DNA from: Cupriavidus necator
Lineage (GTDB): Bacteria > Pseudomonadota > Gammaproteobacteria > Burkholderiales > Burkholderiaceae
Assembly (NCBI RefSeq): GCF_013141915.1
Contig: NZ_SROX01000006.1
Span: forward strand, 124,001-188,000
DNA: 64,000 nucleotides
Reading direction: 5' to 3'
Translations under genes and position numbers: made by a program
Shown here: piece by piece, positions 4,572 through 64,000 of the stretch
Layout of the letters: every line of letters starts with the position of its first letter
Numbering within the stretch: the stretch's first letter is position 1
The notes under the pieces: generated by a model
Databases searched by the model: none
What the model saw: only the letters and a program-made list of their open reading frames with translations
What the model was told of the DNA's origin: nothing

Positions 4572-5049
4572 GATGGGTGATTCAAAGGTTGGTGGGTCAT
4601 GGCTTGCGGATCCGGCGGATCCCGCCCTTCCCCGTACCGTCGTGCAAATGCCGATAACGCTGTGCCGTTGCCGCCCGGCGCCGGGGACAAGTGGAATATA
4701 GGGAGGAGGCTTAATGCCACCAATCAGGCAAGCCTTAGATCTGGTTCGGAATTTTCCCTTTGCCACGCCAGGGCAACGGCATGATGCGTCGGCACCACCC
4801 GTGCTTGCAGAGCAAGCCTATTGCAGGATTACCGATACTGATGTCGTGCACCGCGGCCAGCAGCGCGCAGGACATCCGCGATGCGCCCGCGTGAACTACC
4901 GCGGGCCATGACAACCTCTTCGACAAGCGGGTGAACTACACCGACACGGCGATGCCGGGGACGGCGCTGCTGGATGAGCGTGGCGGTGAAGTTCTGCAGC
5001 CCCGGTTGCCGGCGGCCGGCGCTGCGCCGATCCGCCTGACGTGCGCGCC
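4572..5049. other. Intergenic region between the fimbrial operon and the trehalase gene
   Basis: These 478 bp hold the fimbrial promoter (4695-4723) and the 3' flank of the trehalase gene. No intact gene is supported. On the plus strand, 4907-4990 translates in one frame to HDNLFDKRVNYTDTAMPG, which resembles the C-terminal strand of TonB-dependent receptors (NLFDKRY). The frame has no start or proper end, so a decayed receptor tail is possible but unproven. Confidence 0.4.
4695..4723 (-). promoter_or_regulatory. Predicted sigma-70 promoter of the fimbrial operon
   Basis: On the minus strand TTGGTG (4723-4718) and TATATT (4700-4695) are separated by exactly 17 nt. The -10 matches the consensus at 5 of 6 positions; the -35 keeps only TTG and one more base. 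Transcription would start near 4688, giving a leader of about 117 nt before the pilin ATG. Confidence 0.5.
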
Positions 5050-50564: not shown

Positions 50565-51371
50565 CTAGGCGGCCATCGCCCGGCGCTCCTCCTCATCCAG
50601 CACGGGGCCATCCAGCGTCACGCGCGAGTGATCGGTGCGGAATTTCCGGATGATCGGCTTCAGCTCTTCCTTGATGTGCGCTTCGCTGTATCCGTTGAAC
50701 AGGTGCCCGAGCAGGCCGCGGCGCAGGTCGGAAGTCCCCATAATGTAGTCGGCGATCGGGAACGTGAGGTTCATGTTGTACTTCATCATGATGCCCATGT
50801 TGTGATGGGCGGTGTGGTGGCGCCGGATCGTGTTGATGAAGGGCATGTTGCGCACGAACCAGTTGTCGTGCACGTGGCAGCAATAGTGGAAGGTCTCGTA
50901 GACCAGGTACTGCGCCACCATCGTGATGAAGACAAAGTAGCCGGCGTTGGCATTGAAGATCAGCGATGCCAGGTAGCCCAGCCCGCCGCCGCCCATGCCA
51001 AGTGTCGCCAGCACGCGCCACGGGAAGAACACGATGCGGAATTCGCGCGTGGTATCGATGGTGGGCTCCTGGTCGGTGAAGTACTGGTGGTGCTGGCGCG
51101 TGTGGCGCTCATAGATCGCCCGCAGGGCAAAGACGTTGATGCGGCGGTGCATGACATAGCTGTGCAGGAACCATTCCACGAAATTGCCCGCCAGGAATAC
51201 CGGCACGATCAGCGCCCACTCCCAGGTCACGTTGTGCAGCCGCTGGATGGCCCACCACAGCGCGCCAGTGCCGACCCCGTAGATCACGGCGATATGCAGC
51301 AAGCCGTTGTAGAGGGGGCTGATATCGGCCTTGTATTGCTCCCTGAACTTGCGTTGACGTTCCGTCATCAT
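50565..51371 (-). CDS. Membrane di-iron hydroxylase/desaturase (fatty acid hydroxylase superfamily)
   Basis: The 268-residue integral membrane protein has several helices and the clustered His boxes of the sterol desaturase/fatty acid hydroxylase superfamily: HSYVMH (about residues 71-76), HTRQHH, HYCCHVH and HHTAHH. These bind a non-haem di-iron centre that hydroxylates or desaturates alkyl chains or carotenoid-like substrates. The start at 51371 (with a second ATG next to it) is preceded by CGGAGAC. A CTAATATATTAG-type site 29 bp upstream links it to the neighbouring catabolic genes, so it may act on their substrate. Confidence 0.88.
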   Translation of the reverse strand: MMTERQRKFREQYKADISPLYNGLLHIAVIYGVGTGALWWAIQRLHNVTWEWALIVPVFLAGNFVEWFLHSYVMHRRINVFALRAIYERHTRQHHQYFTDQEPTIDTTREFRIVFFPWRVLATLGMGGGGLGYLASLIFNANAGYFVFITMVAQYLVYETFHYCCHVHDNWFVRNMPFINTIRRHHTAHHNMGIMMKYNMNLTFPIADYIMGTSDLRRGLLGHLFNGYSEAHIKEELKPIIRKFRTDHSRVTLDGPVLDEEERRAMAA

Positions 51372-51399
51372 GATTGCGTCTCCGAAAACTTGCGCCGCA

Positions 51400-51411
51400 C
51401 TAACATATTAG
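51400..51411. promoter_or_regulatory. CTAATATATTAG-type operator, site 1
   Basis: CTAACATATTAG, with one mismatch to the perfect palindrome at site 3, lies 29 bp before the membrane hydroxylase start. Similarity to the other sites extends beyond the core (TTAGTTGGATA here, TTAGTCGGATA at site 3). Confidence 0.55.
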
Positions 51412-51499
51412 TTGGATATAAAAGTGCGTCGATCCAAAAAATGCCCCTGGTGGCCAGGGGCGCCAATGCAGGCGCGGCAGGACGCCGCGCGATCAACCG

Positions 51500-52879
51500 T
51501 CAATGCGAGACTTCCTCCAGCGCCTTGCCGCGGGTCTCGACGCCCAGCAGCAGCACCACTGCTGCGGCCACCGCAAAGGACAGGGCGCCGAGCGTGAAGA
51601 CGCCGCCCTGTCCCGCGACCGGCAGCAGCACGCCGACCAGGTAGGGTCCGGCCAGCGAGCCGATGCGGCCGACCGATGAGGCAAAGCCGGAGCCCGTCGC
51701 GCGCGAACGCGTGGGGTACAGCTCCGGCGTATAGGCATAGAGCACGGACCACATGCCGAACAGGAAAAACTGCATGCACAAGCCCGCGGCGATCAACTGC
51801 TCCACGGGCAACCTGTGCACGGCCGCCTGGCCGTAGGCATACGCGGCCACGGCGCTGCCGATCAGCATCAGCGCACAGGTAGGCTTGCGGCCCCACTTTT
51901 CCAGCAGCCATGCCGAGAAGATGAACCCCGGGATGCCGGCCAGCGAGATATAGACCGTGTAGAGCACGGACTTGGTGACGGCATAGCCGGCCTGCTGCAG
52001 CAGCGCACCGAGCCAGGTGGTCAGCCCGTAGTAGCCCAGCAACGCAAAGAACCAGACCGACCACAGCATGATGGTGCGGCGCGCGTAGGGGCCGCTCCAC
52101 AGCTCCATGAAGCGCGCCTTCCGGCTCGGCGCCTGCGGGCCGCCGAAGGTGGCGGACACCGCCGGCAGTGGACGGCCCCAGGCGCGTTCCACGCGCTGCT
52201 CGATGCCAGCCATGACCGTATCGGCCTCGGACTTGCGGCCGACGTCCTCAAGCCAGCGCGGCGACTCGGGCACCATGCGCCGCACCACGAACACGAACAC
52301 CGCCGGCACTGCCAGCGCGATAAAGATGCCGCGCCAGCCGATCACCGGCAGCAGCAGGTAGGTCAGCGCGCCGGCCACGATAAAGCCGATCGGCCAGAAG
52401 CCCTCCAGGATCGCGACATACCTGCCGCGGCTCTTCGCTGGCACGATCTCCGACACCATCGACAGGCCGATCGGGAACTCCATGCCCATGCCGAAGCCGA
52501 GCAGCACGCGATAGATCATCAGCGACGTCACGCTGTCAGCCAGCCCGCACATCAGGCTGCCCACGCCCCAGAAGATCATGCTGACCTGGAACACCGGCTT
52601 GCGGCCGAAGCGGTCCGCCAGCAGGCCGGCGATCGCGGCGCCCAGGAACATGCCGAGGAAGCTTGAGCTGGCCAGCAGGCCGGCCTGCGCCGCGCTCAGG
52701 CCGAACTCGGCCTTGATCGAGCCCAGCACGAAGGTCATCAGGCCCAGATCCATCGAATCGAAAAACCACGCCGTGGCGATGATGCCGAACAGCGAGCGCT
52801 GGTAGCCGGTCATCGGCAATCGTTCCAGCCGCGCCGCGATACCCGCTTCCAGCTTGAGGGCGCCTGCAGACATATCCAT
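51500..52879 (-). CDS. MFS importer of organic/aromatic acids
   Basis: This 459-residue, 12-helix proton symporter begins AWFFDSMDLGLMTFVLGSIK, with the acidic TM1 residue used by aromatic-acid:proton symporters. Motif A is LLADRFGRK and the loop GMGMEFPIGLSMVSEIVPAK follows. PESPRWLEDVGRKSEA and the late YTPELYPTRSRATGSGFASS are shared with sugar-porter/NiaP-like carriers, so the substrate could be a benzoate-, nicotinate- or phenol-derived acid. The start at 52879 has AGGAGAC upstream, nearly identical to the site before the Fe-ADH gene. It probably brings in the substrate or an intermediate of the cluster. Confidence 0.88.
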   Translation of the reverse strand: MDMSAGALKLEAGIAARLERLPMTGYQRSLFGIIATAWFFDSMDLGLMTFVLGSIKAEFGLSAAQAGLLASSSFLGMFLGAAIAGLLADRFGRKPVFQVSMIFWGVGSLMCGLADSVTSLMIYRVLLGFGMGMEFPIGLSMVSEIVPAKSRGRYVAILEGFWPIGFIVAGALTYLLLPVIGWRGIFIALAVPAVFVFVVRRMVPESPRWLEDVGRKSEADTVMAGIEQRVERAWGRPLPAVSATFGGPQAPSRKARFMELWSGPYARRTIMLWSVWFFALLGYYGLTTWLGALLQQAGYAVTKSVLYTVYISLAGIPGFIFSAWLLEKWGRKPTCALMLIGSAVAAYAYGQAAVHRLPVEQLIAAGLCMQFFLFGMWSVLYAYTPELYPTRSRATGSGFASSVGRIGSLAGPYLVGVLLPVAGQGGVFTLGALSFAVAAAVVLLLGVETRGKALEEVSH

Positions 52880-52926
52880 GGTTGTCTCCTGTGTCAGTGA
52901 GACGCGCTCTGTGGTGGCGCGCTTTC

Positions 52927-52938
52927 GTAATATATTAG
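52927..52938. promoter_or_regulatory. CTAATATATTAG-type operator, site 2
   Basis: GTAATATATTAG, one mismatch from the palindrome, lies 48 bp before the MFS start and continues with TTGCACATG. On the minus strand it reads CAACTAATATATTAC, the same orientation and flank as the other two sites. Confidence 0.55.
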
Positions 52939-53016
52939 TTGCACATGACTGATGTTCAAGTAATGGTTTACCGTAGGCCGGCCGGCGACTCCGGCAAAAG
53001 GGGCCCCCTCAGCAAC

Positions 53017-54291
53017 CTATGCGACCCGCCGCGGTTGCGTCGCGGCGGGTGCGTCACCGGACAGCGTGCCCGCCCATGCATTGCGGACAATGGCGTCATA
53101 GCGCGCTGAGACGTCCGGCGCGGGGAAGGCTTTGGCAAGCCGGGTGACCGCCAGCGCATCGCGCACAAGCGCGTCGAGGTCGCCCGGTTCGATGCCGCAA
53201 GCCTGGAGGGTGGTCGGCAGGCCAACGGACGCCACCAGGCCGCGCAGCGCTCCGGGCACTTGTGCCACCGCGATATCGGGATCGCTCTCGGCGATGTCCA
53301 GCAGGCGGGCAATGGCCAGCAACTCCTCGCGGCGCACGTCGCCCAGCGCATCGAGCACATACGGCAGCATCACCGCGTTGGTGGTGCCATGCGACAGATG
53401 CGTCTGGCCCGCGACGGCGTAGGCGATGCCATGCACGGCGTTGAGTCCCGCGCTGCCGTAGGACAACGCCGCATAGGTGCTGGCGTAGCTCATGCCGATG
53501 CGCGCTTCGCGGTCGTTGCCGTCCTGGTAGCTGCGCAACAGGTAGCGGCCGCATAAGCGGATCGACTCGTGCGCGAACAGCATCGTCACCGCGTTGCGGC
53601 CGCTGTAGCCCGGGTCTGGATCGCCGCCACGATCGAAGCTGGCGGAATCGAGTGTCAGGTAGGACTCGATCGCATGGGTCAGCGCATCGATGCCCGCATC
53701 CGCGGTGACCCGCGGCGGACAGGTATAGGTGAATTCGGGATCGACCAGCGCCACGGCAGGGCGCAGCCGGTTGTCCATGACCGCCACCTTGGTGGCGTTG
53801 TCCGGATCGACCAGGATCGCGCCGGGCGTCGCCTCCGAGCCTGTGCCGGCGGTGGTGGGCATGGCCACCAGCGGCAGCATGGGCGTGCCGGCGTCGATCC
53901 GGCCAAGGAACGCGCGCACGGGCTTGCCGCCCGGCAGGGTCAGGCACAGCGCCTTGGCCAGGTCGATGTTGCTGCCGCCACCCAGCGCGATGACATGGTC
54001 GACCGGCAGGCCGCCAAGCCGTTCGCGCACGGCCGCCGTGGCCGTGTCGCACAACGTGGTGGTGGGATCGGCCATGCCGCCGTCATAGACGAGCAACTCC
54101 ACGCCCTGCGCGCGCGCGCCAGCGACGAGTTCGTCGACCCACGGCGTGGCGCCGCTAAAGAACCTGTCCGTCACCAGCAGGCCGCGGCGATAGCCGAGCC
54201 GGCGCAGCAGCGCGGGCAGCTGCGCACGGCATCCCGCGCCCATGACCAGCCGCGCCGGGGCGCAAAAATATACGAGGTCTTCCACTCTCAT
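53017..54291 (-). CDS. Iron-containing alcohol dehydrogenase family enzyme
   Basis: The 424-residue protein is a group III (Fe-type) NAD(P)-dependent dehydrogenase. The dinucleotide-binding stretch is HVIALGGGSNIDLAKALCL, followed by AMPTTAGTGSEATPGAILVD. The metal ligands lie in TADAGIDALTHAIESYLTLD (Asp and His), HGIAYAVAGQTHLSHGTTNA (two His). Compared with maleylacetate reductases of about 355 residues it carries an insertion after ESYLTLD. It may oxidise an alcohol or reduce an aldehyde intermediate of the cluster, or act as a divergent maleylacetate reductase. The start at 54291 has AGGAGAC. It is 53 bp behind the hydrolase gene, in one operon. Confidence 0.87.
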   Translation of the reverse strand: MRVEDLVYFCAPARLVMGAGCRAQLPALLRRLGYRRGLLVTDRFFSGATPWVDELVAGARAQGVELLVYDGGMADPTTTLCDTATAAVRERLGGLPVDHVIALGGGSNIDLAKALCLTLPGGKPVRAFLGRIDAGTPMLPLVAMPTTAGTGSEATPGAILVDPDNATKVAVMDNRLRPAVALVDPEFTYTCPPRVTADAGIDALTHAIESYLTLDSASFDRGGDPDPGYSGRNAVTMLFAHESIRLCGRYLLRSYQDGNDREARIGMSYASTYAALSYGSAGLNAVHGIAYAVAGQTHLSHGTTNAVMLPYVLDALGDVRREELLAIARLLDIAESDPDIAVAQVPGALRGLVASVGLPTTLQACGIEPGDLDALVRDALAVTRLAKAFPAPDVSARYDAIVRNAWAGTLSGDAPAATQPRRVA

Positions 54292-54344
54292 GCTGTCTCC
54301 TGTGGGGTGGTTTCGGCTGATGGGGATGGCGGTGGATGGCGCCG

Positions 54345-55070
54345 CTATGCCAGCCGTGCGGGCCAGCGCGCCTCCAGGTGACGGGCGATTTCCTGCGTGC
54401 GCTGCGTCAGCACGCCATGGCCTGCGCCCTGCAGCACGAGCAGTTGGGCTCCGGCAATGCCGTTTGCCAGCATCTCGCCGTGGGCAAGTGGGCAGTCCTG
54501 GTCTTCGCTGCCGTGGATGACCAGGGTCCGGCAACGCACCTGTCCCAGCGCATCACGCTGGTCCGTGTGGCGGATCGATTCCCAGGTCCACGCCACCGTG
54601 CGATGGTCCGCTGCCTCGACCAGCCCCAGCCGCCGTTCGCGCGTGGCAATCGCGTCCAGCAATGTCCCGGCTGGCGCGGGCTCGAACCATTGCACCGCGT
54701 TCAGCTGCGGCGTGCCGGAAACCAGCAGCAGCTCTGCAGGCACTGGCTGACCCCGGCGGTGGCGCGCAGCGGCAAGATAGGCCAGCGCCACCGAAACGCC
54801 CATGCTCCATCCGGCCAGCACGAACGGGCCGCTCACGCAGGTGCAAAGCGTGCGCCGCAACACATCGGCGCTGGCCTCGAGCGAGCAAGCCTGCGCACCA
54901 GCCGGTGGCAGCGCCTTTCCCCGCCCCGGCAGGTTGGGGAGGACGAAGGTGCACCGGTCGGCAAGGTGCTCCGCCAACGGCACCCAGGCGCCGCGCGTGC
55001 CCTGGATGCCATGCACGGCGACCACTGTCACGGGGCCCCGCCCTACGACCCATACGTCATCGTCCGCCAT
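54345..55070 (-). CDS. Alpha/beta-fold hydrolase
   Basis: The 241-residue soluble enzyme has the oxyanion segment VVAVHGIQGTRGAW, the nucleophile elbow AGWSMGVSV with Ser89, the acidic residue in VIHGSEDQDCP and the catalytic His in QGAGHGVLTQ. It resembles BioH-like and ring-fission-product hydrolases and could act on an ester, lactone or C-C bond of a catabolic intermediate. It leads the operon with the Fe-ADH gene, and the CTAATATATTAG palindrome lies only 18 bp before its start. It is divergent from the GntR gene. Confidence 0.87.
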   Translation of the reverse strand: MADDDVWVVGRGPVTVVAVHGIQGTRGAWVPLAEHLADRCTFVLPNLPGRGKALPPAGAQACSLEASADVLRRTLCTCVSGPFVLAGWSMGVSVALAYLAAARHRRGQPVPAELLLVSGTPQLNAVQWFEPAPAGTLLDAIATRERRLGLVEAADHRTVAWTWESIRHTDQRDALGQVRCRTLVIHGSEDQDCPLAHGEMLANGIAGAQLLVLQGAGHGVLTQRTQEIARHLEARWPARLA

Positions 55071-55087
55071 CGGGTCTCCCTACACAT

Positions 55088-55099
55088 CTAATATATTAG
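55088..55099. promoter_or_regulatory. CTAATATATTAG operator, site 3 (perfect palindrome)
   Basis: CTAATATATTAG is a perfect 12-bp palindrome between the divergent hydrolase/Fe-ADH operon and the GntR gene. On the minus strand its TATATT could also serve as a -10. Autoregulation and repression of the operon by the GntR protein is the simplest reading. Confidence 0.6.
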
Positions 55100-55206
55100 T
55101 CGGATAGTAGCAGATCACAGCGCGTGTGCAAGCTTGCTGTGCGATGTGTACAAAAGCTGCGTACGGCTCATATACAATCGGTTTTCCTGCTTCCGAACCT
55201 TTGGCC

Positions 55207-55920
55207 ATGAACGCAAGAACTGCCACCCGCCCCCGCGCCGCGACGGCACCAGAGCCTGAAGAGGCTGCCAGCCAGCGCGGCAAGCTGACCGACCTGGCCT
55301 ACGAGCAGATCGAGGAAGCCATCGTCACGCTGCAGCTGGCGCCGGGCAGCTCGGTATCCGAGCTGCAGCTGAGCGAAATGACGGGGATCGGGCGCACGCC
55401 GATTCGCGAAGCGATCCAGCGGCTGGCGCGCGAGCACCTGATCATGGTGCTGCCGCAGCGCGGCTTGCTGATCGCGCCGATCGACGTCGGCAAGCAACTG
55501 CGCCTGCTGGAGACCCGCCGCGAGGTGGAACGCCTGATCTGCCGCAGCGCCGCGCGGCGCGCCACGCCCGAACAGCGCAATCACTTCAAGCGGCTGGCCA
55601 AGGAGTTCGAACAGTCGTCACGCAACGGCGACGATGTCGCGTTCGTCCGCGCCGATCGTGAATTCAACGAGCTTTGCCTGGTGGCGGCGCGCAATGAATT
55701 CGCCGACGGCGCCATGCGGCTGATGCACGGCCTGTCGCGCCGGTTCTGGTACCTGCACTACAAGGAAGCCGCGGACCTGCCCACCATGTCGAAGCTGCAC
55801 GCCGCCGTGGCATCGGCCATTGCGCGCGGCGAAGTCGACGGCGCCGGCGCTGCGCTCGACGCGCTGCTGGACAATATCGAGGAGTTCACGCGGGCCACGG
55901 TCCTGGGTGACTATCGTTAG
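55207..55920 (+). CDS. GntR-family regulator, FCD type
   Basis: The 237-residue regulator has an N-terminal winged helix (about residues 27-92) with LTDLAYEQIEEAIVTLQLAP and the recognition helix in ELQLSEMTGIGRTPIREAIQ. A helical FCD effector domain follows (LETRREVERLICRSAARRAT, FVRADREFNELCLVAARNEF). FCD proteins sense organic acids, often with a metal. The start at 55207 is chosen for family length; no strong ribosome site is visible. It is divergent from the hydrolase operon, with the perfect CTAATATATTAG palindrome between, and probably controls the three sites of the cluster. Confidence 0.92.
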   Translation: MNARTATRPRAATAPEPEEAASQRGKLTDLAYEQIEEAIVTLQLAPGSSVSELQLSEMTGIGRTPIREAIQRLAREHLIMVLPQRGLLIAPIDVGKQLRLLETRREVERLICRSAARRATPEQRNHFKRLAKEFEQSSRNGDDVAFVRADREFNELCLVAARNEFADGAMRLMHGLSRRFWYLHYKEAADLPTMSKLHAAVASAIARGEVDGAGAALDALLDNIEEFTRATVLGDYR

Positions 55921-55970
55921 GCCGCAAGGCGGGTACGCCATTGGCGCCCGCCAGCCTGGCAGGCCGTGTA

Positions 55971-56660
55971 TCAGCCCATCACGAACGAGACAAACTCGTC
56001 CAGCTCCAGCCGGCGGAGCTCCATGTTGTTCTCCGGAATACTGTTGTCCGCATAGCCTAGCGACATGCCGGCCACGATCATTTCCCCGCCGGAGATGCCC
56101 ACGCCTTCACGAAGCACCGCCGATTGCAGCGACCAGATCTGCTGCGGACAGGTATCCAGCCCGCGCGCGCGCGCGGCCAGCATGATGTTCTGCAAGAAGC
56201 AGCCATAGCAGAGGAAGCTGGCCCACTCCAGGCGCTTGTCCATGGTGAAGATCAGCCCCACTGGTGCGTCAAAGAACCGGAACTGCCGCTCGACGTCGCG
56301 TCGGCGCCCGACGATATCGCTCCGTGGCACACCCTGCGCATCGCCCAGCATCCCGCGAAACGTATTAAAACGCGCAGAGAACGGCGCCGGCAGTTCCTTG
56401 GGAAAAAACGGGTATTCGGGCGCGAGTTCCGTGGGCGCGGCGCGGTACGCTTCGACCGCGGCTTCCGTGATCTTGTCGCGCGCCTTGCCGGTCAGCACAT
56501 AGCAGCGCCAGGGCTGCGTGTTGCTCGAGCTTGGCGCGTATTTCGCGACGGACAGGATGTCCCTGACCGTCTCGATCGGCACCGGGCGGTCGAGAAAGCC
56601 GCGCTTGCTCTGGCGTCCGCGAATCAGCGCTTCCGTCAGTTGGATGGTCTCCATCGTCAT
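55971..56660 (-). CDS. Nitroreductase-family flavoprotein
   Basis: The 229-residue FMN enzyme shows the nitroreductase N-terminal motif IRGRQSKRGFLDRPVPIETV, the flavin-contacting APSSSNTQPWRCYVLTG, and in the second half QNIMLAARARGLDTCPQQIW. Members reduce nitroaromatics, quinones or flavins with NAD(P)H. In this setting it may reduce a nitro or quinone group of the substrate. The ATG at 56660 has CGGAGAC upstream. It is divergent from the maleylacetate-reductase-like gene, and an inverted repeat lies between them. Confidence 0.88.
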   Translation of the reverse strand: MTMETIQLTEALIRGRQSKRGFLDRPVPIETVRDILSVAKYAPSSSNTQPWRCYVLTGKARDKITEAAVEAYRAAPTELAPEYPFFPKELPAPFSARFNTFRGMLGDAQGVPRSDIVGRRRDVERQFRFFDAPVGLIFTMDKRLEWASFLCYGCFLQNIMLAARARGLDTCPQQIWSLQSAVLREGVGISGGEMIVAGMSLGYADNSIPENNMELRRLELDEFVSFVMG

Positions 56661-56789
56661 GTCTCCGTTCTAGTGGTGGGGTCGCTGCGATGGAAAAGAT
56701 CATAGACATCTCCCCTGCCTTGTGAAGACGCCAAGTCTGGAAAGCTCCGTCCGGAAACTGCGAACGACCAGCGCCCATCCGCACAGCTC

Positions 56790-56813
56790 CAGCGTCCAGA
56801 TTCCGGGACGCTG
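56790..56813. promoter_or_regulatory. Inverted repeat between the nitroreductase and reductase genes
   Basis: CAGCGTCC (56790-56797) and GGACGCTG (56806-56813) form 8-bp perfect arms with an 8-nt spacer in the 251-bp divergent region. It may be a regulator site or a transcript hairpin. No CTAATATATTAG-type motif occurs here, so this part of the cluster may be under separate control. Confidence 0.4.
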
Positions 56814-56911
56814 CGTTCCGCAATCCCACGCGCACGCGCGCAGCCGATTCGCCTATCTTCCTACTCAGGTCGGAGCCCCGACCCCATACGAACATATGGT
56901 GGAGATGTGGA

Positions 56912-58030
56912 ATGAATCAGTTGAAATGCCTGCCGCAGGAAGAGATTGTCTGGGGACTCGACGTGCTGAAAGCCGCCGCGGCGTCCATGGGCAACTACGG
57001 CATCCGCCGCCCGATCACGTTCACCGTCGCGTTCCTTGACGCCTTGAACCGCGAGCACCTGCAACCTGCCATTGGCGACAGCGTGGGGACCTTCACCGAC
57101 CTGCCGCCGCATGTTCCCGATTTCGCCGTGCATGACGGGCTGCGCGCCTGCATCGGGGCCCATGCGGAATCGATCATCGCCCTCGGCGGCGGCTCCGTGC
57201 TCGATGCCGCAAAGGCAGTCTCGCACCTGCATTTCCAGCAGACGGGCCGCTACCTGCCGATTGCGGCGATCCCGACGACGTTGTCGGGTTCGGAGTTCTC
57301 ACACTATTTCGGCGTGACCGAGACAGACGGTCCGCGGAAGTTCAAGCGCAGCCATGCGGTTCGCGAAACCACGCCGAGGCTGGTGGTGCTCGACCCGCGG
57401 ATGCTTGTCGACACCCCGCGCACGTTGCTGCTGAGCTCGGCCATCAAGGGCATCGACCATGCCGTGGAAGGCATGCGCCGGGTCGAGGTGGACCATCCTC
57501 ATGCGATCCTGGCCGCCAGGGGCGTGGAGCGCTTCCTGGCCGTACTGGAAAAGTGGCCGCGCAAGCTCGAAACGCGCGCAGCCATCGCGGGCGGCCTGGT
57601 CTCGACCGACGACCTGCTGCAGCTTCAACTCGCCGCGTGGCAGTGCTATTTCTACCCCGCATCGGTCATCTACGGCCTGAGCCATCGCATCGGGCACATC
57701 CTCGGCGGTACCTTCGGCGTCCCTCACAGCCTGACATCGTGCATAGCGCTGGCGCCAGTCATCCGCGCCTGTGCCGGCACCTATGGCCGCAAGCTCGAGA
57801 TCTTCTCCACGGACCGTGGCAGCCGCATGCCCGCTGCCTTTCTCGCGGACCGCATCGAAGCGGCCGTGCACGCATTGCAACTGCCGAGCCGCCTCGGCGA
57901 CCTCGATTTCGATCGGGCCAGGCTTCCCGAGCTGTCGGCGCTGCTCAGGCAGAATTATCCGGCCGAGGTCGGCGATCTTGGCGACAATGCGGGCACCAAG
58001 CTGGATGCGCTGCTGGAGAGCCTGTGGTAA
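56912..58030 (+). CDS. Maleylacetate-reductase-like Fe-ADH family enzyme
   Basis: The 372-residue enzyme has IIALGGGSVLDAAKAVSHLH for nucleotide binding, then AIPTTLSGSEFSHYFGVTET. The late metal-site region is YGLSHRIGHILGGTFGVPHS, close to the HxxxHxLGGTxxxPH pattern of maleylacetate reductases such as PcpE, LinF and TcpD. Those enzymes reduce maleylacetate to 3-oxoadipate and, when needed, remove a halogen. It starts a plus-strand operon: reductase, amidase, TDO-like protein, GST. The stop codon overlaps the amidase start (TAATG). GGTGGAGAT precedes its ATG. Confidence 0.85.
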   Translation: MNQLKCLPQEEIVWGLDVLKAAAASMGNYGIRRPITFTVAFLDALNREHLQPAIGDSVGTFTDLPPHVPDFAVHDGLRACIGAHAESIIALGGGSVLDAAKAVSHLHFQQTGRYLPIAAIPTTLSGSEFSHYFGVTETDGPRKFKRSHAVRETTPRLVVLDPRMLVDTPRTLLLSSAIKGIDHAVEGMRRVEVDHPHAILAARGVERFLAVLEKWPRKLETRAAIAGGLVSTDDLLQLQLAAWQCYFYPASVIYGLSHRIGHILGGTFGVPHSLTSCIALAPVIRACAGTYGRKLEIFSTDRGSRMPAAFLADRIEAAVHALQLPSRLGDLDFDRARLPELSALLRQNYPAEVGDLGDNAGTKLDALLESLW

Positions 58031-59451
58031 TGAACCGCCAGCCCTCCGACAGCTTCCCGCACCCCGCCTGCCTGCGCACCGCCCTCGAGGCCCTGGCCAG
58101 CCGGCGGATCACCGCGAAAGACCTGACCGAAGCGGCGATCCGCCGCGCGCAAGCCTGCCAGCAAGCGTTCAACGCGTTCGCGGTCATTGACGGGGAACGC
58201 GCCTTGCAGGCCGCGGCCGAAAGCGACCGCCGCTACGGCGAAGGCAGCCAGCGACCGCTGGAAGGCCTGCCGATCGCGATCAAGGACCTGATCGACACCA
58301 AGGACATCGAGACCAGGTACGGATCGGCGGCGTGCCGCGGCAATGTTCCGGCTGCCGATGCCGACATCGTGAAGGCATTGACGGAATGCGGCGCCATCGT
58401 CATCGGCAAGACCACCACCCACGAATTTGCGTGGGGCGTGACGACCGCCAGCCCCAGCTTCGGCGATACCCTGAACCCCATCGACCCTGCCCGCATTCCC
58501 GGTGGCTCCAGCGGTGGCGCCGCGGCGGCGATCGCGCATGGCGCGGTCCTGGCGGGCGTAGGCACCGACACCGGCGGCTCGGTGCGGATTCCGGCCGCGC
58601 TCTGCGGTGTCGTGGGCTTCAAGCCGACGCTGGGCACGCTTTCCACGCGCGGCGTGTTTCCGCTGGCGCCCACCTGCGACCATGTCGGCCTGCTGGGGGC
58701 AAGGGTCGACGACGTGCGGGTGCTCGCCAATGCCGTCGGCATCGCCACGCCTCCAGTCGATGCCAGGCGTTGCGCTCGCCTTGGCATTGTCCGGCACATC
58801 GCGCCGGTGCCGCTGAGCGGGGAGGTTGCCGGCGCTTTCGATGCGGTGGTGGAGCGACTGGCACGGCGCTATGCCTGCGAGGACCTGGGCGAAAGCCAGC
58901 GCTCGGACGCGGTGTTCGACGCCGTGTTCGACGCCTTCGCGACCATCGTCCTGATCGAGGGCGGCATCGAGCATTTGCGCCGCCATGACTGGGAACGCAT
59001 CGCCACGCATTACAACCCCGAGACGGTCGACCGGCTGCGGCGCGCGCAGGCCATGGACCTGCGCGCTTATGCGACGGCCCAGCAGGCGAGGCGGGATTTC
59101 ACGGCCCGGCTGCATGCGGCGATGTCGACCTTCGACTTTCTGGTGCTGCCGACCTGCCCTTGCACCGCCCCACCCCGCGATGCCGGCACGGTCGACATCG
59201 GCGCCTGGACCGGCACGGTCCGCGAGGCCCTGATGACCTATACCGCCCCCTTCAACGTCGCAGGGTTTCCGGCTATCTCGATTCCCCTGCCGTCCCGCCA
59301 CGGCGGCCTGCCGGCGGCATTGCAGATTGTCGCCAGGCCTGGCGGCGACGGCGCGCTGCTGCAGTTCGCGCAGCAGGTGGAATCCATGCTGGGGCCTGCC
59401 TCCGTTGCACAAGACTTGCCTGACCACACCACCACAAGGAGACCAGAATGA
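58030..59451 (+). CDS. Amidase-signature hydrolase of the aromatic cluster
   Basis: The 473-residue amidase has Lys85 (LPIAIKDLIDTKD), cis-Ser160 in IPGGSSGGAAAA and nucleophile Ser184 in GTDTGGSVRIPAALCG, so it should be active. It is more like GatA-type stand-alone amidases than the AtzE-like one at 17116-18462. It begins in the stop codon of the reductase gene and its own end overlaps the TDO-like gene by 4 bp (ATGA). Coupling to a TDO-family gene suggests that it may open an N-formyl or other amide produced by that enzyme; this is inference from order only. Confidence 0.88.
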   Translation: MNRQPSDSFPHPACLRTALEALASRRITAKDLTEAAIRRAQACQQAFNAFAVIDGERALQAAAESDRRYGEGSQRPLEGLPIAIKDLIDTKDIETRYGSAACRGNVPAADADIVKALTECGAIVIGKTTTHEFAWGVTTASPSFGDTLNPIDPARIPGGSSGGAAAAIAHGAVLAGVGTDTGGSVRIPAALCGVVGFKPTLGTLSTRGVFPLAPTCDHVGLLGARVDDVRVLANAVGIATPPVDARRCARLGIVRHIAPVPLSGEVAGAFDAVVERLARRYACEDLGESQRSDAVFDAVFDAFATIVLIEGGIEHLRRHDWERIATHYNPETVDRLRRAQAMDLRAYATAQQARRDFTARLHAAMSTFDFLVLPTCPCTAPPRDAGTVDIGAWTGTVREALMTYTAPFNVAGFPAISIPLPSRHGGLPAALQIVARPGGDGALLQFAQQVESMLGPASVAQDLPDHTTTRRPE

Positions 59452-60365
59452 ACGATACCGCCAAGTCCGCACCTTTGGCGCCGGCGGAAGCCCCGGCCGG
59501 GCGTACGCCATACAGCGACTGGTTGCAGACCGACCTGCTTCACTCGCTGCAGCACCCCGTCAGCAAGCATCCCGGCGAATACGCATGGATCGTATCGGCG
59601 CAGGTGTCCGAGCTCTACTGGATGCTGATCGTCCGCGAAATCCAGGCCGCGCAGGCGCAACTGCGTGCCGACGACCTGGCGGGGGCCTGCAGCACGCTGC
59701 GGCGCGTGGTCGCCCACCATGAGCCGCTCAATGCCACCTGGCGCTCCATCGCGTGGATGACGCCGGTCGACTTGCTGGCCATCCTGTCATGCGTTGGCCC
59801 CAAATACGGCAAGGACACCGCGCTACAGGGCTGGACGTTCCGCCACATGGTCTACCTGCTCGGCATCAAGCAGGGCGAGCACCTGCAGCACTTCCTGCCG
59901 CAGCCGCAGCGCTGGGAGCAGCTCAGCAAGGCGCTGGCCGAGCCGAGCCTGTACGACGACGTGCTTGCCCACCTGGGCCGCAAGGGCTTCGCCGTACCGG
60001 TGACGGCCCCCGAGCGGGACTTCAGCGTGCCCTATACGCCGGACCAGGCGGTCGAGAAGGTCTGGCGCGAGGTCTACGCCGCCCCGGACCGTCACCGCGA
60101 ATTGCAGCAGCTTGGTGAAACGCTGGCCGATATCGCCGAGGGATTCTGCGCATGGAAGCACCTGCACCTGATGGCAACACGCCGCACTTTCGGCGCCCGG
60201 CCGGCCTACTTCGGCACCGAAGGCATTGCGTGGCTGGTGCCAACCATGAACGAGATCCCGTTCCCGGAACTCTGGTCCGCGCGCGGCTTTATCGGCGACC
60301 CGCCCGCGGTGTGCCCGCACGCCGGCGGCCAGCAAAGCGCCCCGGGAAACGGAACGAGCAACTGA
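59448..60365 (+). CDS. Tryptophan 2,3-dioxygenase-superfamily haem protein
   Basis: The 305-residue protein follows the TDO pattern throughout: PYSDWLQTDLLHSLQHPVSK, then VSELYWMLIVREI, TFRHMVYLLGIKQGEHL and the C-terminal HLMATRRTFGARPAYFGTEG. His240 aligns with the axial haem ligand, Arg132 with the substrate-carboxylate Arg and Thr257 with the GTGGS Thr of TDO. The active-site His that contacts the indole nitrogen in TDO (IHQ motif) is replaced by Ala51 (SAQ). The superfamily also contains haem aromatic hydroxylases. I therefore do not call it a tryptophan dioxygenase; its place in this operon points to an aromatic substrate of the cluster. Confidence 0.8.
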   Translation: MNDTAKSAPLAPAEAPAGRTPYSDWLQTDLLHSLQHPVSKHPGEYAWIVSAQVSELYWMLIVREIQAAQAQLRADDLAGACSTLRRVVAHHEPLNATWRSIAWMTPVDLLAILSCVGPKYGKDTALQGWTFRHMVYLLGIKQGEHLQHFLPQPQRWEQLSKALAEPSLYDDVLAHLGRKGFAVPVTAPERDFSVPYTPDQAVEKVWREVYAAPDRHRELQQLGETLADIAEGFCAWKHLHLMATRRTFGARPAYFGTEGIAWLVPTMNEIPFPELWSARGFIGDPPAVCPHAGGQQSAPGNGTSN

Positions 60366-60386
60366 CCATCAAGCAGGAGGAAACCT

Positions 60387-61433
60387 ATGCCTAATGATTT
60401 CATGAGTAAGCTGGCAGCCAGTGCCCGCGCCGCCATCGCCGATCCCGCACGGATCACCATCGTGGGAAACGATGCAAAGCCGCGCTTCGAGCTGTTCCAC
60501 GCGGCCAGTTCCCTGTGTTCGCAGAAGGTCCGCACGGTGCTGTTCGAGAAGCAGTTGCCGTACCGATCGAACGACATGCTGATCCTGAGCGCGATGGGAC
60601 CGGACGGCGTCATTCCGGCGGAGCACTATCACCCGCCCTATGTCCGCCTGCGGCTGATGGCCGGACGGGAAATCGGGCGGGACTTCGTCAGCGGCTATAG
60701 CGGTCGCACTGCCGTGGACACTGACGGCTTCGACCCCTGCGTCGTGCCGCTGCTCGTCGACTACCAAGCCTCCCGCGTGATCGCGGATTCGCGGCGGATC
60801 TGCTGCTATCTGGACGCGGTTTCCCGCGCACCGGTCCAGCTCCTGCCTGACGATGACCGGGCGCGTGCCGCGGTGATGCGCCAAATGGAGATCGTCGACC
60901 AGATGCCAAACGGCGCCATGCTCTACGGCGCGCACCCCGACGCCGACCGGCGGCCAGAGGCGCTCAAGACGGTCATGGAAACGGTCTACGACCACAAGAT
61001 CGCGGCGATCGAGGCCATGCTTGCCGGCAATGCCGGAGACACCGAACTCGTTACCGCCTATCGCGCCAAGCTCGCCAAGGAGCGCGGCGGCCGCGCGGTC
61101 CGCCGCGATGCCGCATTCCAGCGCGCGGCCCGCCATCACGCCGCGGGCGCGTTGCAGGAGCTGGACCGCACCCTGGGGGCATCACCGTCTCCGTATGTTG
61201 CGGGACACGCGTTCTCTCTGGCGGATGTGCTGTGGGGCGTCAACCTGGTCCGGCTCGCGTATCTGGGATTGGCGTCGATGTGGGACGACCTGCCCAACGT
61301 TGGCCGCTATGTCGGCCTGCTGGCCAAGCGACCCTCGCTGTGCAGGGAGGCGGTCCGCGCCACGATCGACTCGCTGCCGCCATCGCCACACATGGATGCG
61401 CTGGGCGCTTGCGCGGAGGCGGCGCCGGCCTGA
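60387..61433 (+). CDS. PcpC/LinD-like glutathione S-transferase
   Basis: The 348-residue protein has a thioredoxin-like domain starting FELFHAASSLCSQKVRTVLF. The SxCS motif with Cys44 matches SICS of tetrachlorohydroquinone reductive dehalogenase PcpC, whose Cys is essential. The helical domain ends YVAGHAFSLADVLWGVNLVR with DDLPNVGRYVGLLAKRPS, also as in PcpC/LinD. It is longer than PcpC (about 250) by an N-terminal extension and an insert around residue 75-100. It could remove a halogen or isomerise a ring-cleavage product using glutathione. A very strong AGGAGG site precedes its ATG, and a strong terminator follows. Confidence 0.82.
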   Translation: MPNDFMSKLAASARAAIADPARITIVGNDAKPRFELFHAASSLCSQKVRTVLFEKQLPYRSNDMLILSAMGPDGVIPAEHYHPPYVRLRLMAGREIGRDFVSGYSGRTAVDTDGFDPCVVPLLVDYQASRVIADSRRICCYLDAVSRAPVQLLPDDDRARAAVMRQMEIVDQMPNGAMLYGAHPDADRRPEALKTVMETVYDHKIAAIEAMLAGNAGDTELVTAYRAKLAKERGGRAVRRDAAFQRAARHHAAGALQELDRTLGASPSPYVAGHAFSLADVLWGVNLVRLAYLGLASMWDDLPNVGRYVGLLAKRPSLCREAVRATIDSLPPSPHMDALGACAEAAPA

Positions 61434-61475
61434 ACGGCAGCCATTCTGTCATCGGCCTGTGCCGATGAAGACATC

Positions 61476-61509
61476 GGGCGGAGACAGCGGGTCTCCGCCC
61501 TTTTCTTTC
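61476..61509 (+). terminator. Rho-independent terminator of the reductase-amidase-TDO-GST operon
   Basis: GGGCGGAGAC (61476-61485) and GTCTCCGCCC (61491-61500) form a perfect 10-bp stem with a 5-nt loop, followed by TTTTCTTTC. A smaller hairpin, CATCGG/CCGATG, lies just upstream (61450-61467). Confidence 0.92.
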
Positions 61510-61524
61510 GTCGACGCTTTGCTT

Positions 61525-62151
61525 TCAGGCCGCCACCGGCTCCGGCTGGACGCGCAGCGCACGCGCGACGGTCGTCACCCTGCGGCCCTGGTACCGCGCC
61601 ACGTCGAGGTGATCGTCGTCGGGCTTCACGGTGTCGCGGTGCGAAACATGGGTGGCGCCATACGGGGTGCCGGCCTTGAACATCGCCGCGTCGGCATAGC
61701 CCAGCGGCACGATGATCAGGCCCAGGTGGGCCATGGGCGTGTAGGCCGCCAGCAGCGTGGCTTCATTGCCACCGTGGCGCGAGGAGGTCGAGCCGAACAC
61801 GGAACCGACCTTGCCATTGAGCTTGCCCGCGAACCAGAGGCCGCCGAGTCCGTCGATAAAGGCCTTCAGCTCGGTCGAAATGGTGCCGAACCGCGTCGGC
61901 GTGCCGAACACGATGGCGTCGGCCCATTCGGCATCCGCTTCGGTCGGCGCATCGTATTTCGCGTTCATCTCGGTGGCATTCTCGAGCCAGCCCGGCGCCT
62001 GGCGCATGACGTCGGGGCCGACCACCTCCCGCGCACGTCGCATGCGGACTTCGGCGCCAGCCTCGAGGGCCCCTTCGGCGACAGCCTTGGCCAGCATCTC
62101 GGTGGCGCTGTTCCGTGAATAGAAGACGATCAGTACCCTGGGTTTACGCAT
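61525..62151 (-). CDS. wrbA: WrbA-type NAD(P)H:quinone oxidoreductase
   Basis: The 208-residue flavodoxin-fold enzyme has the FMN loop FYSRNSATEMLAKAVAEGAL, then GTPTRFGTISTELKAFIDGL and SVFGSTSSRHGGNEATLLAA, the WrbA core. Such enzymes reduce benzoquinones to hydroquinones by two electrons, and WrbA-type reductases serve in p-nitrophenol pathways. I use the ATG at 62151 with CGGAG 7 nt upstream; a longer start at 62172 overlaps the previous gene. It lies 17 bp behind the ring-cleaving dioxygenase gene, so quinone reduction and ring cleavage are co-expressed. Confidence 0.9.
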   Translation of the reverse strand: MRKPRVLIVFYSRNSATEMLAKAVAEGALEAGAEVRMRRAREVVGPDVMRQAPGWLENATEMNAKYDAPTEADAEWADAIVFGTPTRFGTISTELKAFIDGLGGLWFAGKLNGKVGSVFGSTSSRHGGNEATLLAAYTPMAHLGLIIVPLGYADAAMFKAGTPYGATHVSHRDTVKPDDDHLDVARYQGRRVTTVARALRVQPEPVAA

Positions 62152-62168
62152 GTCGGTCTCCGGCAATG

Positions 62169-63119
62169 TCATGCGGAAATGGGCTCGAGCCGGCCCAGCA
62201 GTTCATCCTTGCGTTCCACCAGCCGCGGCGGGAGCTGGAACGCCTCGCCGAAATGGCCGGGCGCTTCATCGATGGCGAAACCGATGTCGGTGGTGGCCGC
62301 CTCGAACATCACCCCGCCGGGCATCTTGAAGTACATCGAGCGGAAGTAGTTGCGGTGCACCGATTCGGAGGTATCGATGTAGCCCAGCGCGAACAGCTTT
62401 TCCTTCAGGATCGCCTGCTGTTCGACGTTATCCACGGCGAAGGCCACATGGTGGATCGTCCCTTCGCCGTAGGTCGACGAGCCCTGGAGCCGGTCCGGCT
62501 CATGCAGCAACTCGACAATCATGCCCGGGCCGCCGGTGTAGGTCTCGAAGCGGTAATAGGATCCGGCCTGTCCAACGTTGCGAAAGCCAATCACTTCGCT
62601 CATGAAGCGGATCGATTCGGCGACATCGCGCAGCGACAGCGTGATGCTGTGCACGCCGCGGATGGCATGGGCCTCGGGGATATCGCTGGCGACGCAAGCC
62701 GGACGCGCGTCGAGGTCCGTTTCGACGAGATCGAACTCGATGCCGCACGGATGCTGGAACCGCTGGCGGCGCTCGCCGAAGCGTTCGACGATCTCGCTGT
62801 CATACGGCACCGCCATGGCATCGAAGCGGCTGCGCCAGAACGACAGCGAACCGGTGGGCACCGAGTAGTTGATGACTCTCACCTGGCCCGATCCCTGGCG
62901 CGCCATGACGCCCCGCTGGCGAAACGGGAACGACGTCACCAGCGTACCCGGATCGCCATTCGCATTGCCGTAATACAGGTGGTAGATGGGATCCTCGCCG
63001 TCGAGCAGCACGGTCTTCTTCACGAGGCTCTGTCCGAGCAGCTTGACGTAGAAGTCGACATCTTCCTGTGCATGGCGCACGCCGACGGTCAGGTGATGAA
63101 ACCCCTTGAGCATGGTCAT
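62169..63119 (-). CDS. Ring-cleaving dioxygenase, PcpA/LinE/MhqO-like (VOC superfamily)
   Basis: The 316-residue enzyme contains two vicinal-oxygen-chelate modules: residues 1-140 starting MLKGFHHLTVGVRHAQED, and 150-310 starting IRGVHSITLSLRDVAESI. The metal triad of the family is seen as the His pair at 8-9, the His in EGTIHHVAFAVDN and the Glu in GGVMFEAATTDIGF. Members cleave (chloro)hydroquinones next to a hydroxyl group. The ATG at 63119 follows GGAGAGGAC. It is divergent from a LysR-type gene, its likely activator, and is co-transcribed with the WrbA-type gene. Confidence 0.9.
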   Translation of the reverse strand: MTMLKGFHHLTVGVRHAQEDVDFYVKLLGQSLVKKTVLLDGEDPIYHLYYGNANGDPGTLVTSFPFRQRGVMARQGSGQVRVINYSVPTGSLSFWRSRFDAMAVPYDSEIVERFGERRQRFQHPCGIEFDLVETDLDARPACVASDIPEAHAIRGVHSITLSLRDVAESIRFMSEVIGFRNVGQAGSYYRFETYTGGPGMIVELLHEPDRLQGSSTYGEGTIHHVAFAVDNVEQQAILKEKLFALGYIDTSESVHRNYFRSMYFKMPGGVMFEAATTDIGFAIDEAPGHFGEAFQLPPRLVERKDELLGRLEPISA

Positions 63120-63434
63120 TGTCCTCTCCAGTTTGAAATTGGCATGTGGAAACGGCGTAGCGCCGCTCCTGCGCAACAGCTTATGACGACAGATTTCGCT
63201 TGGGCAGCCGCCAGGGTTGTACGCAGGGTTCGGCAAACTTGGACGATGGCATCACGCAAGACGGTGGGCGCCTGCCGGGCGGGAAATGCCGGGGCGGCAC
63301 GGGCGCGGACACGGCGGTGCGCCAAGGGCTTGCCCGGGTGGCGTCGGGCCGCGGCCATGGAGTATGATCCGCGACACCCACTCGCTTCCCGATCATCGCC
63401 GCCGCCATGGGATTGGCCGGTGAGTCGCCATGCC
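63120..63434. other. Divergent control region, dioxygenase / LysR gene
   Basis: These 315 bp lie between the dioxygenase and the LysR-type regulator. The likeliest dioxygenase promoter is the AT-richer stretch around 63178-63200 (ACAGCTTATGACGACAGATT). A CGGCG-TAG-CGCCG hairpin lies at 63154-63166. I do not see a clear T-N11-A box and find no CTAATATATTAG-type site. Confidence 0.4.
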
Positions 63435-64000
63435 ATGCTCGACCTGAAGGACGTCTATTACTTCGTGCAGGTGGTGGACCGTGGCGGATTCACCGCGGCT
63501 GGGGACGCACTCCGGCTGCCGAAGTCAACGCTGAGTCACCGCGTGAAGGAACTGGAAGGCTCGCTGGGCGTGCGGCTGATCAACCGGACATCGCGCCATT
63601 TCGCGGTGACGGAGGTGGGTCACGAGTTCTACCAGTACGCCATGGCGCTGATGCGCAGCGCCGACCTTGCCGAGGAAGCCATGCGTCAGCGGCTGGCAGA
63701 GCCAAGCGGCGTCATCCGCGTGACCACGGCGACGGACATCGCCCAGTTCGCGCTGCGCCACGTCTTGCCGACCTTCCTCTCCGACCACCCCAAGGTAAGG
63801 ATTCAGGAAACTGCCACGGACAGGATCGTGGACATCGTCGGCGAGGGCTTCGACCTGGCGATCCGGGGCCATGTCGGCCAGCTGCAGGACTCCAACCTGG
63901 TCCAGCATCCGCTGGCCAGGACGCCGTGGTATTTGTTCGCGGGCCCCGACTATCTCGAGCGGACCTCGGTGCCGGCACAGCCCGAGGAGCTGGCGTCCCA
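63435..64000 (+). CDS. LysR-family regulator (runs off the right edge)
   Basis: The first 188 residues of a LysR-type activator are present. The winged helix DLKDVYYFVQVVDRGGFTAA with GDALRLPKSTLSHRVKELEG is complete, and the effector domain begins at about residue 90 (GVIRVTTATDIAQFALRHVL). An in-frame GTG at 63420 is an alternative start; the ATG at 63435 gives the standard N-terminus. It is divergent from the ring-cleaving dioxygenase gene, the usual position of a LysR activator relative to its target. The inducer is probably a pathway substrate or intermediate. Confidence 0.92.
   Translation, partial: MLDLKDVYYFVQVVDRGGFTAAGDALRLPKSTLSHRVKELEGSLGVRLINRTSRHFAVTEVGHEFYQYAMALMRSADLAEEAMRQRLAEPSGVIRVTTATDIAQFALRHVLPTFLSDHPKVRIQETATDRIVDIVGEGFDLAIRGHVGQLQDSNLVQHPLARTPWYLFAGPDYLERTSVPAQPEELAS

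Follow-up and report, generated by a model that had tools for sequence, protein, structure and literature searches.

What pathway is encoded by a gene cluster that joins a nitroreductase, an amidase, a glutathione transferase (GST) and a hydroquinone-type ring-cleaving dioxygenase to a protein with the fold of tryptophan dioxygenase (TDO)? Such a cluster lies at the end of the window analysed here, a 64,000-nucleotide stretch of Cupriavidus necator (assembly GCF_013141915.1, contig NZ_SROX01000006.1, forward-strand positions 124,001 to 188,000), and an initial annotation, made from the sequence alone, held that the whole arrangement might be undescribed. We conclude, with a probability of about 0.85, that it encodes an mnp-type reductive nitrophenol pathway, in which the TDO-fold protein takes part as a heme enzyme whose substrate is probably a phenol and not tryptophan. 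The cluster comprises eight genes from 55971 to ~64346; their open frames are present where the initial annotation had placed them, except that the bounds of the dioxygenase, the probable start of the amidase and the LysR end beyond the window are corrected to the values below (aa, amino acids; Fe-ADH, iron-dependent alcohol dehydrogenase).

55971-56660, minus strand: nitroreductase, MnpA-like, 229 aa; PF00881 match.
56912-58030, plus strand: Fe-ADH-family protein, probable maleylacetate reductase, MnpF-like, 372 aa; PF00465 and PDB matches.
58030-59451, plus strand: amidase, MnpE-like, 473 aa; PF01425 at E 1.5e-91; probable start, read from the sequence.
59448-60365, plus strand: TDO-fold protein (TDO-like below), probable heme enzyme, 305 aa; TIGR03036 at 229 bits and predicted fold.
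60387-61433, plus strand: GST, MnpD-like, 348 aa; GST_N_2 above and GST_C_2 below cut-off; SSLCSQ motif.
61476-61500, plus strand: terminator-like hairpin 3' of the GST gene, 10 bp stem and T-run, a consensus match of a kind no commoner than chance (the region has 4, shuffled sequence 4.2).
61525-62172, minus strand: WrbA-type NAD(P)H:quinone reductase, 215 aa; NF002999 and TIGR01755 above cut-off.
62169-63119, minus strand: hydroquinone-type ring-cleaving dioxygenase, MnpC/LinE/PcpA-like, 316 aa; PcpA and MhqO matches.
63447-64000, continuing to ~64346 beyond the window end, plus strand: LysR-type regulator, MnpR-like.

The mnp cluster of Cupriavidus has been described for meta-nitrophenol and 2-chloro-5-nitrophenol (PMC5604080, cited here and below from part of its text). 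In that account, MnpA is a nitroreductase whose gene is needed for the use of both nitrophenols, MnpC is an aminohydroquinone dioxygenase (42% to LinE) that cleaves hydroquinone and chlorohydroquinone, and MnpD is a LinD-like GST (40% to LinD) whose purification failed; the amidase MnpE, the maleylacetate reductase MnpF and the LysR-type MnpR were all three assigned by BLAST, and the mutase MnpB is encoded on another contig and induced 38-fold. MnpA-, C-, D-, E-, F- and R-type genes were found together in the window, as in C. pinatubonensis JMP134 and Cupriavidus sp. CNP-8 (nitroreductase, LinE-like dioxygenase, LinD-like GST, amidase, maleylacetate reductase and LysR), and this agreement with the described list, from which mnpB stands apart, argues for an mnp-type pathway. 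The view of the arrangement as undescribed is thus not upheld, and the nitroreductase, listed earlier without its role, has a counterpart that is the entry enzyme of mnp (PMC5604080). WrbA and the TDO-family gene are what the window holds beyond the mnp list; in the main text available of PMC5604080 the TDO-like gene goes unnamed and the word 'tryptophan' occurs 0 times.

Further support for the mnp assignment came from C. pinatubonensis HN-2, of the same species as the meta-nitrophenol degrader JMP134, which has counterparts of all eight genes on its plasmid p2, 62-79% identical (nitroreductase and dioxygenase 79%, GST 74%). WrbA, dioxygenase and nitroreductase stand together in HN-2, with LysR between nitroreductase and reductase; in the window, by contrast, the GST is followed by WrbA and dioxygenase, with LysR at the end. 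The part of the JMP134 genome paper at hand tags a GST Reut_C5979 and a nitroreductase Reut_C5984, the latter not named there as MnpA; the five JMP134 tags would fit the HN-2 order of GST, TDO-like, amidase, reductase, LysR and nitroreductase, a fit that likewise favours mnp.

That the TDO-like gene belongs to this set was indicated by its distribution and by the gene junctions. In a survey of 148 genomes, the window's own included and 60 of them of its genus, the nitroreductase (cut-off E 1e-60), the reductase (E 1e-90) and a long TDO-like match were found in an identical set of 24 genomes, all of the window's genus (24/60), and this sharing supports an mnp-type unit that includes the TDO-like gene. 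The long TDO-like matches in these genomes showed 67-100% identity, in two pieces in G052; one genome outside the set, G030, had a TDO-like fragment only, and a class-wide sample of 369 genomes gave a match at E 1e-60 in the window's own genome alone. At the junctions, the reductase stop and the probable amidase start share TAATG, the amidase stop and the TDO-like start share ATGA, and the dioxygenase stop and the WrbA start also share ATGA. These overlaps suggest that transcripts may be shared within reductase-amidase-TDO-like and within dioxygenase-WrbA, and the former run of overlapping frames is a further argument for the mnp assignment.

The enzyme matches and active-site residues are consistent with this gene list. 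The nitroreductase is 69.5% identical to one in the cnbZ region of plasmid pCNB of Comamonas testosteroni CNB-1. Of the seven PDB matches of the Fe-ADH-family protein at E up to 1e-11, three are maleylacetate reductases (9ph0 'MAR1', 3w5s and 3hl0), two are alcohol dehydrogenases and two are methanol dehydrogenases. A residue that is Asp in one methanol dehydrogenase and Asn in the maleylacetate reductase 3w5s is Lys in this protein. With that Asp taken to be the metal-binding residue, the protein combines the Fe-ADH fold with the absence of this Asp, the feature by which maleylacetate reductases were recognised here. The dioxygenase aligned to PcpA (4huz) at E 7e-73 and to MhqO (3oaj) at E 3e-51, and its His9, His224 and Glu273 (316-aa numbering) correspond to PcpA His11, His227 and Glu276, presumably the iron ligands, so that the PcpA-like chain has the two-His-one-Glu set of LinE/PcpA-type dioxygenases. 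The amidase carries the Lys, GGSSGG and DTGGSVR motifs and the GST carries SSLCSQ, of the catalytic SxCS type, at residue 41, all of which we take to be functional motifs. The earlier proposal of a hydroquinone lower pathway, made from WrbA, the PcpA-like dioxygenase and the maleylacetate-reductase-like enzyme, is upheld, and the GST is of the kind that had been read as pointing to a substituted ring.

In the pathway proposed, the nitroreductase would reduce meta-nitrophenol or a related nitrophenol to the hydroxylamine, which a mutase encoded elsewhere would convert to aminohydroquinone. The GST would remove a halogen if there is one, a step proposed in print for MnpD, and WrbA may keep the ring reduced, as the hydroquinone. 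Cleavage beside the amino group by the LinE-type dioxygenase would give an amide; for mnp the proposed ring-cleavage product is likewise an amide, 6-amino-4-hydroxy-6-oxohexa-2,4-dienoic acid (PMC5604080). The amidase would then hydrolyse the amide to maleylacetate and ammonia, and the reductase would convert maleylacetate to 3-oxoadipate. The TDO-fold protein would be a heme enzyme of this pathway too, acting on a probably phenolic compound other than tryptophan in a reaction at which we can only guess. Work on related strains has shown the nitroreductase step, that mnpA is needed and that MnpC cleaves hydroquinone and chlorohydroquinone (PMC5604080), and for JMP134 a review seen in part gives the same steps up to aminohydroquinone, followed by ring cleavage and ammonia release (PMC3975901); by analogy, the window proteins may perform the same steps as the characterised Mnp proteins. 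We agree with the initial annotation that an aldehyde dehydrogenase can be dispensed with. Its acyl-halide route fits less well, as the amidase better suits the amide product of aminohydroquinone cleavage. Of its statement that the TDO-family protein and the amidase lack counterparts, the first half stands, the TDO-like protein being unaccounted for, and the second does not, since the amidase is of MnpE type and could open the proposed amide.

Is the company of these genes constant beyond the close relatives? In a wider scan, each species with a TDO-like alignment was represented by a single genome, and 56 loci were obtained. Because the scan started from two peptides, TDO-like genes lacking these were missed, and every locus has a TDO-like gene by construction. 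The loci came from Cupriavidus (15), Variovorax (13), Pseudomonas (6), Rhizobium (5), Paraburkholderia (4), Bradyrhizobium (3), 'Rhizobiales bacterium' (2) and acidobacteria (2), with one each from Burkholderiaceae bacterium, Massilia, Pseudorhodoferax, Phyllobacterium, Ferirhizobium and Sinorhizobium. Families were counted in flanks of up to 10 kb a side, some shortened by contig ends, with identity floors of our own choosing (dioxygenase 34%, GST 35%) and with partial matches included. All seven other core families were present in 34 loci, six in 9, five in 2, four in 3, three in 2, one in 4 and none in 2. At least three thus stood near the TDO-like gene in 50 of the 56 loci, mostly proteobacterial, which again speaks for the mnp assignment. 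By family, the nitroreductase was found in 49 loci, the reductase in 47, the amidase in 47, the GST in 48, WrbA in 41, the dioxygenase in 42 and LysR in 50. The GST was the sole other core family in L078, L108, L109 and L116, one side of L109 being only 1 kb long. The order of the core genes varies widely across the loci. Since the set is found again across many genera while its gene order changes, chance association of the core families is excluded, and varied order in constant company marks a functional set.

Several points weigh against the mnp assignment. The link to mnp was drawn from gene content, HN-2 and the descriptions in the mnp paper, not from alignment to MnpA-F of JMP134 or CNP-8. 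The Fe-ADH-family protein reaches no NCBIfam cut-off, and no curated model calls it a maleylacetate reductase; the best PDB matches of the GST are GDAP1 at E 3e-7, its LinD type following from the motif and the mnp paper's description. The window genome shows one glutamine-synthetase-family gene and no extra mutase of that type is visible in it, MnpB being, as we take it, a glutamine-synthetase-like protein. The acidobacterial loci L103 and L117 have a TDO-like gene with 0/7 of the other families in the 10 kb flanks, and related nitroreductases occur without a TDO-like gene within 9 kb on pCNB and within 12 kb in R. grahamii.

The left boundary of the cluster was set with 27 fetched stretches of 19-20 kb, 25 around the TDO-like gene and two around another TDO-family gene. 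Of the 25, 23 have both nitroreductase and reductase; L046 and L056 are the exceptions. Between 50565 and 55920 the window encodes a fatty-acid-hydroxylase-like protein (below the Pfam cut-off), an MFS transporter, a second Fe-ADH, an alpha/beta hydrolase and a GntR gene, and within the sequence fetched these accompany the TDO-like gene in one stretch of the 25 (L032). These five genes were therefore rejected as cluster members, and the interval 50565-64000 first proposed for the cluster is five genes too wide, the true start being 55971.

Some loci showed further features. In L103 and L117 (~9-12.6 kb), the neighbours of the TDO-like gene include an isochorismatase-family hydrolase and a PQQ dehydrogenase, together with large regulators of PAS type (named by eye), none of which gave a lead to its role, and in L117 the frame 5' of the TDO-like start resembles an amidase C-terminus by eye. 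Rhizobial L061 (2292-3455), and also L065, L102, L105, L106 and L121, encode a longer VOC protein, the first half of which has its best match in the second half of the window dioxygenase, while the second half matches the start of that dioxygenase (35% and 40% in L061), a pattern that could reflect circular permutation, with repeated VOC modules as the alternative. A second, shorter GST of ~205 aa occurs in 33/62 loci of eight genera, none of them Cupriavidus (for example, L087 12152-12763 and L061 6556-7176), with genus labels set by hand and those of L069, L098, L109 and L114 guessed. Seven Cupriavidus-like or Paraburkholderia loci (L068, L069, L070, L071, L072, L074 and L075) keep the TDO-like gene with a partial, weak or absent GST behind it, and all of these but L068 have an amidase-GST copy upstream on the opposite strand. 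Near the Pseudomonas cluster L087, a PF13557 (Phenol_MetA_deg) protein is encoded at 4673-5572, with homologues in 10 other loci.

What, then, is the TDO-fold protein? Its TIGR03036 score of 229.1 bits falls short of the curated TDO cut-off of 390.7, in a comparison made without a known TDO as control, and it passes the broader Pfam PF03301 (97.3 against 34.9). Its predicted model (mean pLDDT 80, 27 rows) had TDO structures as best matches, with target-normalised TM up to 0.93. Residues were compared in 62 TDO-like sequences, the window and 61 loci, L059 and L115 being the same record. The heme-ligand position H240 is kept in 62/62. Arg117, Tyr113, Thr254 and distal His55 (Xanthomonas numbering) are, as we take them, the TDO residues for tryptophan, and none is kept in any of the 62 copies: the position of Arg117 is Leu in all, that of Tyr113 Leu in 60 and Met in 2, that of Thr254 Tyr in 61 with a gap in 1, and that of His55 Ala in 14, Val in 45 and Cys in 3. 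Loss of His55 alone is not diagnostic, since L057, another TDO-family protein, has Ala there yet keeps Arg117 and Thr254. His55 variants of TDO retain some activity. In MarE, whose substrate is a tryptophan derivative, the His contacts the indole nitrogen and the Arg holds the carboxylate (PMC11904535, seen in part). Purifying selection acts on the gene: its dN/dS was 0.15-0.19 in six comparisons, inside the span of the six other genes tested (0.02-0.33), as estimated from 6 TDO-like stretches picked out of the 25 among close relatives that share a gene order. A second TDO-family gene elsewhere in the window genome, 33% identical, is presumed to be the true TDO, and tryptophan or indole catabolism was rejected on this ground and on that of the changed pocket. 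The 'TDO-family' label of the initial annotation is qualified in that the TDO residues for tryptophan are missing, and this altered pocket argues against tryptophan-like substrates. With H240 kept and the tryptophan-pocket positions changed, the protein is probably not a tryptophan dioxygenase and another aromatic substrate is likely. The predicted TDO-like helical bundle and the conserved proximal heme His are those of the heme-dependent aromatic oxygenase (HDAO) superfamily with TDO, MarE and SfmD, and our guess is a heme oxygenase acting on an amino-, hydroxylamino- or other phenol. No role for a TDO-like gene in nitrophenol pathways was found in the literature searched, which omitted Yin 2010 and Perez-Pantoja 2008. 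Second TDO-like copies in L082 (15614-16264) and L089 (16319-17089) look degenerate, with the heme histidine gone by eye.

Among the alternatives, the one that survives best, though we consider it doubtful, makes the TDO-like protein the cluster's own means of forming aminohydroquinone from a hydroxylamino- or aminophenol, by HDAO-type oxygenation or a heme-assisted rearrangement, replacing or backing up the separate mutase. Because mnpB lies outside the described cluster (PMC5604080) and the window genome shows the one glutamine-synthetase-family gene, the heme protein could carry out this step or serve as a reserve for it; its gene co-occurs strictly with the nitroreductase and reductase, the heme ligand is kept in a changed pocket, and the superfamily is said, in the part of PMC11904535 available, to include tyrosine-type substrates and monooxygenations. 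However, PMC5604080 explains growth without a TDO-like gene and reports strong induction of mnpB, related nitroreductases also occur without a TDO-like gene, and the heme enzyme is a predicted one with a function proposed from sequence and context.

An improbable alternative keeps the chlorinated-hydroquinone pathway first suggested, with cleavage to an acyl halide and thence maleylacetate, the TDO-like protein and amidase being undescribed additions. The lin and pcp pathways (LinD/PcpC, LinE/PcpA, maleylacetate reductase) are not known to include a nitroreductase, an amidase or a TDO-like gene. These three are extra in the window, which shares with lin and pcp the dioxygenase type and, by the mnp paper and family matches, the GST and reductase types. 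The PcpA/LinE-like dioxygenase, the GST near the TDO-like gene in 48/56 loci, chlorohydroquinone cleavage by MnpC and the LinD-like label of MnpD (PMC5604080) would suit it, but the nitroreductase (49/56) and the amidase (47/56) have no role in it and the gene set is already described as mnp.

We regard as very improbable that the TDO-like protein and the amidase form an indole-opening pair, for C2-C3 cleavage and N-formyl removal, feeding hydroxy- or nitro-indole into the hydroquinone pathway: the predicted TDO fold and the overlapping frames of the two genes in the window fit such a pair, but the positions of the indole-nitrogen His and carboxylate Arg of MarE (PMC11904535) are changed in 62/62 copies. 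Moreover, the amidase has a possible mnp role and the two genes lie apart in several loci. Hardly credible, and rejected, is a set for detoxification under quinone stress, as in the mhq regulon of Bacillus, which comprises a quinone reductase, a nitroreductase and an MhqO-like dioxygenase. WrbA, the nitroreductase and the MhqO match would suit it, but the probable maleylacetate reductase and the amidase point to carbon and nitrogen use and the dioxygenase scores better against PcpA (E 7e-73) than against MhqO (3e-51).

Collectively, the window cluster adds one more member to a catabolic cluster type already described, with one conserved component for which no assigned step was found in the literature searched. 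A cluster first called unusual is now placed within a described nitrophenol pathway, relatives of its gene set are found in many soil and plant-associated bacteria, and one conserved, probably heme-binding protein is singled out. As a tentative proposal, held at rather less than even odds, this protein may represent a new branch of heme-dependent aromatic oxygenases, spread via mnp-type clusters of three proteobacterial classes, that would form an (amino)hydroquinone from a simple phenol such as a hydroxylamino- or aminophenol. If this is true, the natural substrate of mnp-type clusters would be a phenol needing that step, not the pollutant for which they are named.

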